DNA of 64,000 bases. Source: Ferroplasma acidarmanus Fer1 (GTDB taxonomy: Archaea > Thermoplasmatota > Thermoplasmata > Thermoplasmatales > Thermoplasmataceae). The notes below the pieces were generated by a model. The model made no database searches. It was given only the letters and a program-made list of their open reading frames with translations, and was not told where the DNA came from. Positions 10,150 to 46,854 of this stretch are shown here, in pieces (the first letter of the stretch is position 1; every line of letters begins with the position of its first letter). The stretch lies in NCBI RefSeq assembly GCF_000152265.2, contig NC_021592.1:62001-126000 (forward strand), read 5' to 3'. A program made the translations under genes and the position numbers.

Positions 10150-10536
10150 TTACTTGTCTACACTATTAATTGTCCTCTTAATGCCAAGCATGACGGCATA
10201 ATTGCTTATTATTCCAATTGCCAGTAACATATGCAAATATGGAATATATGTTGAGTAGAAGCTATTTGTTTTAAGTATGATAAATCCTGACCCGATTATA
10301 CCGGTTATAACTATCAACAAAATATTAACTATTGCAAGATGGGCAAGTCTGATTATATTTTTAGTGTACACGTAAGATAAAATTGACATGATAAAGAGAA
10401 GTACACCCAGTGATATATGTAAAATTAAAATTTCAGAATTTGCAGGGTTTGCAATCTGTGAGAGATAAAATCCAACCATAATTTGTATGAGAGTAATACC
10501 GGAAGTAGCCCATAAAACGCGTTCAATTTTGTCCAA
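10150..10536 (-). CDS. Four-helix membrane protein with conserved-looking histidines
   Basis: 128 aa with four transmembrane helices. Histidines lie within or at the ends of helices 2, 3 and 4 (LHISLG, LAHLA, LHMLLAIG), and the pattern H-I-x-L-G ... T-G-x-x-G ... H-M-L-L-A resembles half of the CtaA/COX15 heme A synthase fold. Heme binding is therefore possible but not shown. The family is not named with confidence. It stands alone on the minus strand, between the thiolase relic and the DUF234-type ATPase gene. Confidence 0.7.
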   Translation of the reverse strand: MDKIERVLWATSGITLIQIMVGFYLSQIANPANSEILILHISLGVLLFIMSILSYVYTKNIIRLAHLAIVNILLIVITGIIGSGFIILKTNSFYSTYIPYLHMLLAIGIISNYAVMLGIKRTINSVDK

Positions 10537-10896
10537 ACTTCATTACCAGAATCCTTATATGATCAGGATAATTAAATGTATACTTTATCCAGAATTCTAG
10601 CAACTATGTTTTATGCTTGTATAAATTTTGCAGCAGGCCAGAATAATGTTTGTCAATGTAATTTTTTTTATTGAAATACATAAAACGAAAGCCCTCAATA
10701 TAAAGCAAATGTAATAGGGAGCATTCAAATGCTAAAATCCACACTTGCTAAAGGAGTTGCAGTAATAATAGTATTGGAGTTCACTACCGGTGATAACGTT
10801 GCCTCTTCAGGGCCCTCAGTGTTCACTTTGCATGCATCCCTGTCTACGTACACTTGGAATGTAAAACTTTTAATACACTTTTACATTATTCAAAGT

Positions 10897-12276
10897 ATGA
10901 TACCTGAAAGAATGTTTGTTGATAGAATAAATGAATTACAGAATTTAGAAGATTTGAGCAATGAAAATAGAGCCCAATTAATTCTGATATATGGTAGAAG
11001 GAGAATTGGAAAAACTACTTTACTGTATGAATTTTTAAAAAATAAAGACAACGCTCTGTTTTTTATGGCAGATGCGAGTGAAAACATCCTGGATACATTT
11101 TCTGATATAGCATCTGAAAAGTTCAATAATGTGAGATTTCAAAACTGGGATAATTTTTTTGATTTCCTCTATTCTAAATCGAAAGAGAATAGATTTATTG
11201 TAGTAATAGATGAATTTCAGTATTTAACAGCGGTTTTAAAATCCTGGCCAACGATATTGCAAAGGCATTGGGAAAAATTGAAGACCACGAAAATATTCCT
11301 GGTTCTTTCAGGTTCCCTGGTATCCTCAATATACAGAATTGCCATGGGATACGGCTCTGCATTATATGGCAGAAAAACCGGTGAGATGAATATAAAGCCT
11401 TTGAATTTTATCGATACGGGAAGTTTTTTTAACACAGATATAAATAATCTGGTTAAAATATATATGATTCTGGGTGGTGTCCCACGATATCTTGAGGAAT
11501 TTGATTCCGGAAATATATATAATAATATAATCAAAAAAATTCTTAATAAAAATTCATTTTTGTATAATGAACCTCTAAATTTATTACATGAGGAGTTTAA
11601 GGATTTAACATCTTATTTTGCAGTTCTGGATACAATAGGATCAGGTGCAACTACTTTTAATGAAATTTCGGTAAAATCCAGGATAGCACAGAATAAACTA
11701 TCTAAGGTTCTTGATGTATTAATACGGGCCGAGTTAATAGCAAGGGAGGAATCGATAATTAAAAGTAATGTCAGGAATATTCACAGTTACTATATTAAGG
11801 ATAATCTTTTTAACTTCTGGTTTAAATTCGTTTACCCTTTCCGTAGTTTGCTGGAAATGAATAATGAAGAAGTAGTTATTTCTAAAATTAAAAGTGAGAT
11901 AAATACATTATTCGGCCATAGATTTGAATTCATAGCCCGGGATTTATTATTGCATAATCAAGATAAATTACCATTTGCCATATCCTATATAGGCCGATCC
12001 TGGGGAAAACTTAAAAATAAGGTAGGCAATAATTCTAATTATGAATTTGATGTGGTGATACAGGACGCCAAAAAATACTATACCGGAATATTTGAAGTAA
12101 AATATAAAAAATTGAGCTATGGAGATGCATATAAAATAATAAAGAACATGCAAGAAATATATAACAATATAAGTGTGAATAGCCATCCTGTATTCGGTAT
12201 AATTGCGAAGAATGTAGAAAACAAAGAACTTCTCAGGCAAAATGGTTATTATGTATTTGATCTGGATGATTTATAA
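10897..12276 (+). CDS. Archaeal P-loop ATPase with C-terminal DUF234 nuclease-like domain
   Basis: 459 aa. Walker A is GRRRIGKT (33-40) and Walker B is VVIDEFQ (about 102-108). The C-terminal DUF234 region keeps an intact PD-(D/E)xK-like core, YEFDVVIQ followed by GIFEVKYK, so nuclease activity is plausible. The frame stays open upstream to 10729, but that part has no family similarity, and a TTTAATAC box about 25 nt before the ATG at 10897 supports this start. These archaeal ATPases are common in Thermoplasmatales and Sulfolobales and their role is unknown. Confidence 0.88.
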   Translation: MIPERMFVDRINELQNLEDLSNENRAQLILIYGRRRIGKTTLLYEFLKNKDNALFFMADASENILDTFSDIASEKFNNVRFQNWDNFFDFLYSKSKENRFIVVIDEFQYLTAVLKSWPTILQRHWEKLKTTKIFLVLSGSLVSSIYRIAMGYGSALYGRKTGEMNIKPLNFIDTGSFFNTDINNLVKIYMILGGVPRYLEEFDSGNIYNNIIKKILNKNSFLYNEPLNLLHEEFKDLTSYFAVLDTIGSGATTFNEISVKSRIAQNKLSKVLDVLIRAELIAREESIIKSNVRNIHSYYIKDNLFNFWFKFVYPFRSLLEMNNEEVVISKIKSEINTLFGHRFEFIARDLLLHNQDKLPFAISYIGRSWGKLKNKVGNNSNYEFDVVIQDAKKYYTGIFEVKYKKLSYGDAYKIIKNMQEIYNNISVNSHPVFGIIAKNVENKELLRQNGYYVFDLDDL

Positions 12277-37326: not shown

Positions 37327-37484
37327 CTTAAACCTCTTTTCCCAGAAAGTATCTGGAATATGCGCTATATTTTCCGGCACATAATAATTTTATGTTATAA
37401 ACTTATTAATTATCATACCAGTTTCCTATATTTAACCATTATGCATGACCATGTCATATTTATTCTATGATTTAATTTTTAATT

Positions 37485-38534
37485 ATGGATGAGAATGTCA
37501 ATAAAATCCTTAAAAAACACTGCAATAAAATATCTAAAGAATCAAAGGTTGAAGGAATAGGCATAGACAGCTATTCCAGGAAATTTAACCTATCAGCACA
37601 TCTATCCATTTTAGCAACTGGAATAATTAAAAAGAATGACCTTACAGATATAGCATATAACAATGGAATAAGCAAATCACAGCTGTCAAAGCTTAACAAT
37701 AAAAGGCCATACAGTATATTTGAAAAGGTATTTTACAGTATTCTGAGGCCCTTTATAAAGGCACACAGGTATGATATATACCATGATTATATTGACAGAT
37801 TATACAGTGTTCTGGCAATAGATTCTACATTTATAGAAACAATGGTTAAGGGTTCAGGCATCTATCAGAGGGGGGAAAGGAGAAATGGAATAAAAATACA
37901 TACTGCAGCCATTGCAAGCCCCTATCCTTTGCCATTGAAGGCAATAATTACACCTGCAAATGTACATGATTCTAAAGTATTTGATGATCTGCTGGAATAT
38001 ATCAATGAATACATATCTGGCAATACAGTATTAACATTTGATTTAGGGTACTATAATCTTGGCAGGTTCATGGAGTTAAAGGAAAAAGGTATAAATTTTG
38101 TTTCAAGGATAAAGAAGAATGCTGATTATACTGTAATAAAGGAGGAAACATTCAATTCTAAGATTGTAAGGTTTAGAAATGGATTGGAATTAAGATTGGT
38201 ATCACTGGATATTAATAATAGGAAAAGGGAATATATAACAGATATACTGGACCTTCCTGAAATATACATTTATTATATCTACATGAGAAGATGGGTAATA
38301 GAGAAAATATTTGAAAATATGAAAAGGATTTTAAAAATAACACATTTAATATCAAGGGATTTAAATGGAATTATAAACCAGGTATTTGCAACTCTTATTT
38401 CCTATATTGTACTGTTGATATTGCAATCATCAATGAATATATACCATACTCCTGCGGAAATAGTAAGGTCAATAAGGAACAGTAAAGAGCTTGATATTGG
38501 CCATGATTACATGAGCAATTTCAATAAAATATAA
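37485..38534 (+). CDS. IS4-type DDE transposase
   Basis: 349 aa. The triad is Asp in AIDSTFIE, Asp in TFDLGYYNLG and Glu in YMRRWVIEKIFENMK, an exact Y-(2)-R-(3)-E-(6)-K signature of the IS4 superfamily. The N-terminal 90 residues contain a helix-turn-helix-like part (LTDIAYNNGISKSQLSKL). The gene looks intact. I compared 160 bp on each side and did not find convincing terminal inverted repeats, so element ends are not given. It lies between the decayed GT2 gene and the CARF-PIN gene. Confidence 0.9.
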   Translation: MDENVNKILKKHCNKISKESKVEGIGIDSYSRKFNLSAHLSILATGIIKKNDLTDIAYNNGISKSQLSKLNNKRPYSIFEKVFYSILRPFIKAHRYDIYHDYIDRLYSVLAIDSTFIETMVKGSGIYQRGERRNGIKIHTAAIASPYPLPLKAIITPANVHDSKVFDDLLEYINEYISGNTVLTFDLGYYNLGRFMELKEKGINFVSRIKKNADYTVIKEETFNSKIVRFRNGLELRLVSLDINNRKREYITDILDLPEIYIYYIYMRRWVIEKIFENMKRILKITHLISRDLNGIINQVFATLISYIVLLILQSSMNIYHTPAEIVRSIRNSKELDIGHDYMSNFNKI

Positions 38535-38551
38535 TAGCAATAAATTAAATC

Positions 38552-38573
38552 GGGCTTACTTAATAGTAAGCCC
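38552..38573 (+). terminator. Perfect 9-bp hairpin after the IS4 transposase gene
   Basis: GGGCTTACT (38552-38560), loop TAAT, AGTAAGCCC (38565-38573), followed by TTACCCC. It lies 18 bp after the transposase stop and probably protects or ends that transcript, or shields the downstream gene from read-through. Confidence 0.6.
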
Positions 38574-38791
38574 TTACCCCTTCCATCAGGCAATATTATG
38601 ATCTTAATTTTTTATAATAATTTTTCCATTGGATTTACAACCAGCAATCAGAGAATTTTAATTATAATTCCATTGCTCGACAATAATTGTCATAGCAACA
38701 CTGTGTAAATTGATGTTATCTTTATGAAATTGCAAATGATCAGATATAAATATTGGAAATCTGTATGTAATTATATAAAATATTTTGTCAT

Positions 38792-38803
38792 AATTTATAT
38801 ACT
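38792..38803 (+). promoter_or_regulatory. TATA box of the CARF-PIN gene
   Basis: AATTTATATACT is centred 25 nt before the ATG at 38822, matching a leaderless transcript and supporting that start over an upstream TTG at 38813. Confidence 0.6.
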
Positions 38804-38821
38804 TTAACATTATTGCTCTTT

Positions 38822-40222
38822 ATGAGTTTTAAGGCTCTTGTTTTATTTGGTTCATCTACAGATTTACTTGAATCTTCTTTTTCTTCCACTTTGCGCCTTG
38901 TTGAATCCTTCGATATAGATTCTGTCAAAATTTTATATTCATCATTTGCAGAAGATCAATGCATTAAATTAAAAGAACTACTTCAGAAAGTCCTGAAGGA
39001 CAAATACATAACTATAACTGGTGAACAAATTAATGAAAACAGTTATGAAACACAATTCAACGAATTAATAGATAGCAACACTATCCTAAGCCCTACATCA
39101 GGTTCAAAGTTTTATGCTTTCGTATCCACAAAAATAGCAGTGGAGAAAAACACAACTATAATCCATACCATGTTTCCTTTCGGGCCGTGGAAGGGAATGT
39201 TTTACCCCTTTGTTCCCAGATTCTTCCAGCCAGTAAAAACAATAAATGGAGACATACAACCTCAAGAAAAAGTAAGGAATATATTCGACAATGAGGAAGC
39301 AGTTAAAAAGAGCATCAGCGGGTTTACCTATCAGAAACTCGGAGCGTCTAAAATAAGTTTCAGGGTGGGCAATATGGCATTAAAATTAAACTTAAACAAC
39401 CCGCTGAATTATTATGATGGAACACCAAATGTTTCAACCTCTCTGGGAATAAGCAAAAATGGGGCTATGTCCTTAAACAAAAGCGATTCTGACAGTATAA
39501 TTAAATTCCAGTTTGAAAATAAAGCTAAAAATTTTAACTTATCTTACAATAAAGATGGTGAATTCAGGCAAATTGAAAGGGGGGCTTTTCAGGATATGAA
39601 AAATTTAATTAAAATAGCGATAGATGCCGATCTGGAAAATCTCAATAAGGATAACTCAGGAAGAAATGCTATATCACCTGCAGATATTATCGGGCTTCTA
39701 GGGTTCGAAGATATAAAAGTTGAAGGTGAAAATCTAATGGAACGGCCCGTAGAAAATCTCGGAGATCAGGTTAAAGGCATTGTTGTGGACACAAATCTTG
39801 TTTACTCTGGCATCTTAATGTACAAGGGCATGAAAATGATGATTCCATACTGTACCTATGTTGAAATAGCCAACAGAAGATCAGAATTGCTAAAATATGA
39901 CGCGGATAACAGAATTAAATATGTATATGGCACGTTTCTCTGGGAAAGTTTAACCGAATTGATGAATCGCAATCAAATGCTGCGTACCGAGGCTTTTTTC
40001 TGTGATGGAGTTATTCCAATGATTGACCCGCTTCTGATAAAAGACTGTGCAATAGTGACCAGGGACGAGGGTGCTTACAGACACTGGCTGGACATTTTCC
40101 CGAGAAATGTTATGGTAATGAAAGCTACACAGAATGTGTCTGAAAATCGGGCAAAAATTGTATTTGCTTTAATGTTGCTTTCTTCAATGATAAGGGAATT
40201 AAAATTCTCCAATTATAATTGA
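38822..40222 (+). CDS. CARF-like ligand-binding domain fused to a C-terminal PIN nuclease
   Basis: 466 aa. Residues 2-140 form a Rossmann-like series of strands and helices (KALVLFGSS, VKILYSS, YITITGEQI, ILSPTSGSKFYAFVSTKIA, TIIHTMF); the SPTSGSK turn sits where CARF domains have their T/S-G-G-T/S-K ligand loop. Residues 170-310 are a middle region. Residues 315-450 are a PIN domain with Asp323 (VVDTN), Glu348 (CTYVEIANRR), Asp402 (MIDPLLIKD) and Asp415 (IVTRDEG). CARF proteins bind cyclic oligoadenylates in type III CRISPR immunity and switch on attached nucleases. There is no cas gene or array in this window. It is convergent with the TPR gene. PIN assignment is strong; CARF is by pattern only. 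Confidence 0.65.
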   Translation: MSFKALVLFGSSTDLLESSFSSTLRLVESFDIDSVKILYSSFAEDQCIKLKELLQKVLKDKYITITGEQINENSYETQFNELIDSNTILSPTSGSKFYAFVSTKIAVEKNTTIIHTMFPFGPWKGMFYPFVPRFFQPVKTINGDIQPQEKVRNIFDNEEAVKKSISGFTYQKLGASKISFRVGNMALKLNLNNPLNYYDGTPNVSTSLGISKNGAMSLNKSDSDSIIKFQFENKAKNFNLSYNKDGEFRQIERGAFQDMKNLIKIAIDADLENLNKDNSGRNAISPADIIGLLGFEDIKVEGENLMERPVENLGDQVKGIVVDTNLVYSGILMYKGMKMMIPYCTYVEIANRRSELLKYDADNRIKYVYGTFLWESLTELMNRNQMLRTEAFFCDGVIPMIDPLLIKDCAIVTRDEGAYRHWLDIFPRNVMVMKATQNVSENRAKIVFALMLLSSMIRELKFSNYN

Positions 40223-45693: not shown

Positions 45694-46854
45694 ATGGAAA
45701 ATACAGATATAAACATATCGGCTCTTTTGAATGTAGATATAGATAAAATACTCAAGCAAACAATAAAGGAGAAAATAGAGAAATTAATGGAAATAGAGTT
45801 AAATGCATATTTAGAGGAAAATCCAGGAATAAAGAATGGGAAATACAAAAGGGATTTAAAGACAAAGTATGGTGAAATAAAACAATTAAATGTTCCCAGA
45901 GACAGGGATAGCAATTTCCATACACAGGTAATAGAACCATATAACAGATCAATAGGAATGGAAGATCTTATAGTATCAATGTATTCCAATGGAATATCTA
46001 CAAGGAGAATAGCAGGTATAATGGAGGATATTTTAGGGAATAAATATTCTAAATCTACTATATCCAGAATAACAGATTTAACCATAGAAGAGGTTTATAA
46101 ATTTATTAACAGGCCATTGGACAAAAGGTATATAGCAGTATTCTTAGATGGATTATTCTTCTATTTAAGAAGGGGAAATGTAGATAAAGAGCCTGTTATA
46201 TTTGCATTAGGAATAAAAGAAACAGGAGAGTATGAAGTATTAGGGTTCTATTTAACAGTTAAAGAATCACATAATGCATACAAGGAAGTACTTGAAGATC
46301 TGTATAATAGAGGATTAAAGGAGCCATTGTTAATTGTAGCAGATGGAATAAAGAATTTAGATGAGGAAGTAATGGAAATATATCCCCGATCAGAATTCCA
46401 ATTGTGTACAATACACTATGCAAGGGGATTAAAATCCAATGTAAGGGAGAAAGATATTGATGAAATAACAATAGATGCGAATAAGATGTTTAAATGTGAT
46501 AATAAGGAAGAAGCTATAATAAGATTTAATGATTTTAAATACAAATGGAAGAGTAAGTATCCTAAAGTTATATACAATACTGAAAAGAATCTAGGTAAAT
46601 TATTAAGATTCTATAATTATCCTGTAAATATAAGGAAATCATTGAAATCTACCAATGCCATAGAGAGATTTAACGGAGAAGTAAGGAGAAGGGTAAAAAC
46701 AATATCATCATTCCCTGATGAAGATTCAGCAATGAAGGTATTCTATTATAAGTCAATAGAATACAATTCAAAGCATGCATTCAGGAAGATGAACGGATAC
46801 TATAAATGCAAGGATGAAATAAAGGAAATGTTTCAGAAGCGGTATCCTTTATAA
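45694..46854 (+). CDS. IS256-family (mutator-type) transposase
   Basis: 386 aa. Catalytic residues are Asp in VFLDGLFF, Asp in LIVADGIKNL and Glu in STNAIERFNGEVRRR, with the C-x2-H motif QLCTIHYARG between the second Asp and the Glu, all characteristic of IS256. The reading frame is intact. GAGAGGTAACAAA before the ATG offers a ribosome site. Confidence 0.95.
   Translation: MENTDINISALLNVDIDKILKQTIKEKIEKLMEIELNAYLEENPGIKNGKYKRDLKTKYGEIKQLNVPRDRDSNFHTQVIEPYNRSIGMEDLIVSMYSNGISTRRIAGIMEDILGNKYSKSTISRITDLTIEEVYKFINRPLDKRYIAVFLDGLFFYLRRGNVDKEPVIFALGIKETGEYEVLGFYLTVKESHNAYKEVLEDLYNRGLKEPLLIVADGIKNLDEEVMEIYPRSEFQLCTIHYARGLKSNVREKDIDEITIDANKMFKCDNKEEAIIRFNDFKYKWKSKYPKVIYNTEKNLGKLLRFYNYPVNIRKSLKSTNAIERFNGEVRRRVKTISSFPDEDSAMKVFYYKSIEYNSKHAFRKMNGYYKCKDEIKEMFQKRYPL

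Follow-up and report, generated by a model that had tools for sequence, protein, structure and literature searches.

CARF effectors are usually read as the output arms of type III CRISPR systems, and a constrained CARF nuclease gene in a genome with no detectable Cas10 raises the question of what activates it. Such a gene lies on the forward strand of the 64-kb stretch of DNA analysed here (the window), at 38822..40222 with the stop codon counted in the coordinates, and encodes a CARF–PIN protein of 466 aa (ATG at 38822, stop codon at 40220-40222). The open reading frame, its coordinates, the SPTSGSK motif at residues 90-96 and the acidic residues Asp323, Glu348, Asp402 and Asp415 are all as an earlier note on this DNA had described them. 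A TATA box, TTTATATA (38794-38801, forward strand), ends 20 nt before the ATG, and all six homologues carry a similar box at about the same distance from the start. This spacing is the one expected of a leaderless archaeal transcript and favours the ATG at 38822 over the TTG at 38813 as the start; the gene thus appears to be monocistronic, leaderless and transcribed from a promoter of its own.

The protein belongs to a catalogued fusion family. In PADLOC, it matches the CARF_m3--CARF_PIN profile at E 5.4e-43, with residues 15–457 aligned to model positions 14–375 of 397, a profile match far above chance level, and each half finds its counterpart alone, residues 1–152 matching the CARF part (E 8.8e-19) and residues 300–466 the PIN part (E 3.4e-21) of the same model. 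The C-terminal half also matches an independent CARF+PIN model, PDLC01182 (E 2.7e-7), and the N-terminal half a Csx1-type model, both from PADLOC. Pfam returned zero matches for the protein and NCBIfam nothing above cut-off, neither Csx1_HEPN nor Csx1_CARF was matched in profile searches, and sequence searches of the PDB yielded no matches. Comparison of the CARF half with a T. volcanium-like CARF in hhalign gave no signal, at an alignment depth too shallow for the result to be informative. Fusions of CARF and PIN domains were already described in 2014 (PMC4012209). The two-domain architecture is known and this exact family already catalogued, which leaves the protein less novel than the earlier note implied; what is new here is a set of further family members in an unusual genomic setting.

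The CARF domain (residues 1–150; 38822..39271, forward strand) is predicted to adopt a Rossmann fold. The full-length AlphaFold2 model, built on an alignment of only six homologues, has a mean pLDDT of 51, and most of residues 1–110 form an alternating strand/helix domain at pLDDT 70–89. The best Foldseek matches of this domain in the PDB are Sso2081 and Sis0455 (E 1e-5, probability 1.00), followed by SiRe_0806, Can2, Cdn1 and Card1, and the top 30 matches are mostly CARF proteins with a few NAD-binding Rossmann enzymes. Comparison of the predicted N-terminal fold with solved CARF domains, which had been proposed as a check, favours CARF over an unrelated fold. The putative ligand loop SPTSGSK (39089..39109, forward strand; residues 90–96) sits between a strand (87–90) and a helix (96–108). 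It takes the family form PT[S/A]GS[K/R] at residues 91–96, after strand 4, with P91, T92, G94 and S95 invariant across the six homologues, as is the segment FxxGxWxGM[FY]YPFVPR at residues 118–133.

The PIN-type domain (residues 318–466; 39773..40219, forward strand) carries D323, E348, D395, D402 and D415, all invariant in six homologues at identities down to 39%, in the motif order D-x-N / E / D / T-x-D. General PIN profiles from Pfam and NCBIfam gave no PIN-family match even to E 5-10, the PADLOC CARF+PIN models being the only ones to respond. A structure prediction of this domain alone reached a pLDDT of 47 and found no PIN match in the PDB, its order of elements being PIN-like by eye only, and was discarded for its low confidence. 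The fusion proposed by the earlier note is therefore borne out in its CARF half by both profile and N-terminal fold, and its PIN half is assigned by profile and motif, Pfam and structure comparison giving no match. Between the two domains lies a variable linker (residues 151–317; 39272..39772, forward strand), whose identity from genus to genus is only 18–22%, compared with 43–53% for the CARF and 57–62% for the PIN domain.

The gene is solitary wherever its surroundings could be compared. In the genus of the window it has glycosyltransferase and TPR-protein genes on its flanks, in a second genus its neighbours are a purine/cytosine-type permease on one side and scpB on the other, and in a third it lies near a contig end; no neighbour is common to all three genera, so that there is no conserved operon partner, and PADLOC detected no defence genes among the neighbours beyond generic TPR matches. 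KaiC-like, glycosyltransferase and TPR neighbours were considered as partners and rejected, as they are not conserved between genera. No cas genes or arrays occur near the gene in the window or on the contigs of the relatives. An insertion sequence with a DDE transposase of 349 aa (37414..38767, forward strand) lies upstream, separated from the TATA box by 26 bp. Its ends are near-matching (CATACCAGTTTCC / CATACAGATTTCC), it is bordered by a 7-bp target duplication (TAATTAT), and it is absent from the sister genome; the insertion is recent, and the promoter core of the CARF–PIN gene is intact. A second copy of the element, encoding the same protein, lies between the array and cas1 of the nearest cas locus (L009:1375-2424). 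Elsewhere in the window, a 386-aa ORF at 45694-46854, transposase-like by eye, was not recovered from the equivalent region of the sister genome, a further sign of recent mobile-element activity in the host strain.

The host assembly is complete (1,935,211 bases) and could be searched for sources of a cyclic nucleotide signal. It holds two cas1 loci, each with a CRISPR array and with ORFs that by eye resemble Cas6, Cas8, Cas7, Cas5, Cas3, Cas4 and Cas1, a gene content that makes both loci type I. The nearest cas genes found belong to one of these loci (contig 2.8-10 kb), about 90 kb upstream of the CARF–PIN gene, and no array was found within the 64-kb window, arrays having been sought in extracted stretches of the host genome; the absence of nearby cas genes and arrays that the earlier note reported is thus upheld. 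In the second type I locus (L012:6278-7821; G000:C1 about 1191278-1192821), the Cas4-like ORF is apparently shortened by the insertion of a 352-aa transposase and is without the C-terminal Cys-rich end present in the Cas4-like ORF of the first (L009:3675-4172).

Neither the Cas10 palm domain (PF22335) nor the type III RAMP domain (PF03787) was detected in the complete host genome, the latter search covering the genome of the window only; controls for both profiles, including M. jannaschii and S. acidocaldarius, were positive. The absence of Cas10 concerns profile-detectable Cas10, and a divergent Cas10 or an unrecognised cyclase could escape such a search. The earlier note had suggested that the protein might serve a distant type III locus; the genome-wide search that it proposed found no Cas10, and the two array-bearing cas loci of the genome are type I. 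With the Cas10, RAMP and mCpol searches of the 1.94-Mb assembly all empty, a distant type III locus is unsupported in this genome. Other signal makers fared no better as candidates. mCpol (PF18182) had no match in the host genome, its control matching once, below cut-off. A CBASS cyclase was rejected on a SMODS match of 21.7 bits, under the cut-off of 26.5, in a 427-aa frame that is probably a CCA-adding enzyme, a guess from its size. Among CARF proteins, Csx1_CARF had no match in the host genome, and Csa3-type CARF regulators gave below-cut-off matches in their HTH part only.

Among 117 genomes of the order, an intact CARF–PIN gene is present in six, spread over three genera and including two of the ten listed genomes of the window's own genus. 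Cas10 was detected in none of these six carriers and is present in six other genomes. Both genes being rare (6/117 each), chance alone would be expected to leave no genome with the two together (P = 0.72), and the distribution shows that Cas10 is not required for retention of the CARF–PIN gene, not that the two are mutually exclusive. Csx1, in the same order, shares a genome with Cas10 in three of six cases (P 0.001) and occurs without detected Cas10 in the other three carriers. One Cas10-bearing, Thermoplasma-like genome, G101, retains a stop-ridden and frame-shifted remnant of the CARF half of the family just downstream of an orphan Csx1 and about 170 kb from cas10 (L040:9095-9594 and 10250-11488), which ties this family historically to type III systems. 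A single-protein search of genome contigs found no relatives, an alignment-based genome scan returned the same MAGs only, and viral contigs, phages and plasmids contained no relatives. In another genome, 99% complete and with no Cas10 detected, an array of about 14 repeats lies beside a Csx1 match (G094, L068:7962-12499), and the same stretch holds a second Csx1_CARF-matching ORF and a CARF5-like ORF; either this is a further instance of CARF proteins occurring in the absence of Cas10, or the locus is type III and its Cas10 was missed.

The CARF–PIN gene bears the mark of purifying selection. Its dN/dS is about 0.23 (0.029/0.129) between the window and the sister genome (G060) and about 0.08 (0.113/1.34) between two members of the second genus, and is lowest in the PIN part. 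A known orphan CARF nuclease, VC1899 (DUF1887), resides in a genome without type III, is not regulated by cA4 and has been described as "cast adrift" (PMC7969007). The low dN/dS and the retained ligand loop speak against a decayed state of that kind for the present protein.

The best reading, held at a probability of roughly 0.55, is that the protein is a PIN ribonuclease gated by a ligand, with an activator that originates outside any type III system of the host's own. The N-terminal CARF domain, probably dimeric, would use the PT[S/A]GS[K/R] loop together with the GxWxGM[FY]YPFVPR segment to bind a small signal molecule, either of adenylate type or an oligonucleotide. Binding would rearrange the variable linker and switch on the C-terminal metal-dependent PIN nuclease, which may then cleave RNA of the cell or of a virus as part of a toxic response in defence or under stress. 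The activator could be an oligonucleotide derived from host or virus, or a cyclic oligoadenylate made by an incoming or not-yet-recognised synthase. A broader proposal, put forward only tentatively, is that CARF–PIN proteins form a stand-alone immunity or stress system, driven by a signal, nucleotide or RNA, whose synthesis does not involve Cas10, and kept by selection in archaea that lack type III. The earlier note's other suggestion, a separate nucleotide-signalled immunity protein, is likewise a possible reading: the protein is under constraint and has kept its ligand loop, but the searches turned up no activator and defence genes are not conserved beside it.

The main rival to a nuclease with a Cas10-independent activator is a leftover or portable type III effector, acquired from, or left behind by, a system since lost and still able to bind cyclic oligoadenylate, which would act only once a Cas10 system is acquired, regained or delivered by a mobile element. 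In its favour, CARF effectors make up the family, the Cas10-bearing G101 has a decayed copy beside an orphan Csx1, Csx1 itself persists without detected Cas10 in half of its carriers, and VC1899 is a published precedent for an orphan CARF nuclease (PMC7969007). However, intact genes whose loop and catalytic residues are under constraint occur in no fewer than five species-level genomes that lack Cas10, across three genera, and dN/dS is low, whereas a leftover without use would be expected to decay, as happened to the copy in G101; this account is accordingly viewed as possible but doubtful.

Two further explanations were weighed. RtcR, which lacks a Cas10 partner, has a divergent CARF domain that binds 5' tRNA halves bearing a 2',3'-cyclic phosphate (PMC7790460), a precedent that would account for Cas10-independence if the present CARF domain likewise bound RNA or tRNA fragments with 2',3'-cyclic phosphate ends and the PIN domain trimmed or destroyed damaged or foreign RNA. 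Such an RNA-damage sensor seems improbable, as none of the CARF–PIN neighbourhoods showed linkage to RNA-repair genes, the fold is matched best by cA4 ring nucleases and effectors, and the loop belongs to the type that binds cyclic oligoadenylate. Least probable is a housekeeping nuclease for tRNA or rRNA processing whose Rossmann domain has nothing to do with signalling: a chromosomal, solitary gene with its own promoter and a stable site within one genus would suit that role, but an enzyme essential for RNA processing would occur throughout the order rather than in only 6 of 117 genomes, and both profile and fold identify the N-terminal domain as CARF.

A CARF–PIN gene held under constraint in complete genomes that lack Cas10 would mean either that archaea make oligonucleotide alarm signals by a second route, as yet unknown, or that CARF sensors for RNA damage operate outside CRISPR. 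The protein is small and solitary and lends itself to direct ligand screening.

Among known systems, the closest is the catalogued family itself, CARF_m3--CARF_PIN (PADLOC PDLC01983/PDLC01984; PMC4012209), which has the same domain order and matches over the full length; in contrast to the family as catalogued, the present members stand alone, in genomes without detectable Cas10. The Crn1 ring nucleases Sso2081 and Sis0455, the best fold matches of the N-terminal domain, are stand-alone CARF enzymes that degrade cA4, whereas the present protein adds a PIN domain. Can2 and Card1 likewise join a CARF sensor to a nuclease and are Foldseek matches in the CARF part, though their effector is a PD-(D/E)xK rather than a PIN domain. 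The logic of a CARF-gated RNase is common to Csx1/Csm6, but these use a HEPN effector, for which the present protein gave no match, and in this order Csx1 tracks Cas10 while CARF–PIN does not. VC1899 differs in its ligand site, its pocket being unfavourable and the protein unresponsive to cA4 (PMC7969007), whereas the loop of the present protein is conserved between genera. RtcR, finally, shares with the present protein a CARF domain, which in RtcR works without Cas10 (PMC7790460), and differs in its output, RtcR being an AAA+/HTH transcription activator and the present protein a predicted nuclease.
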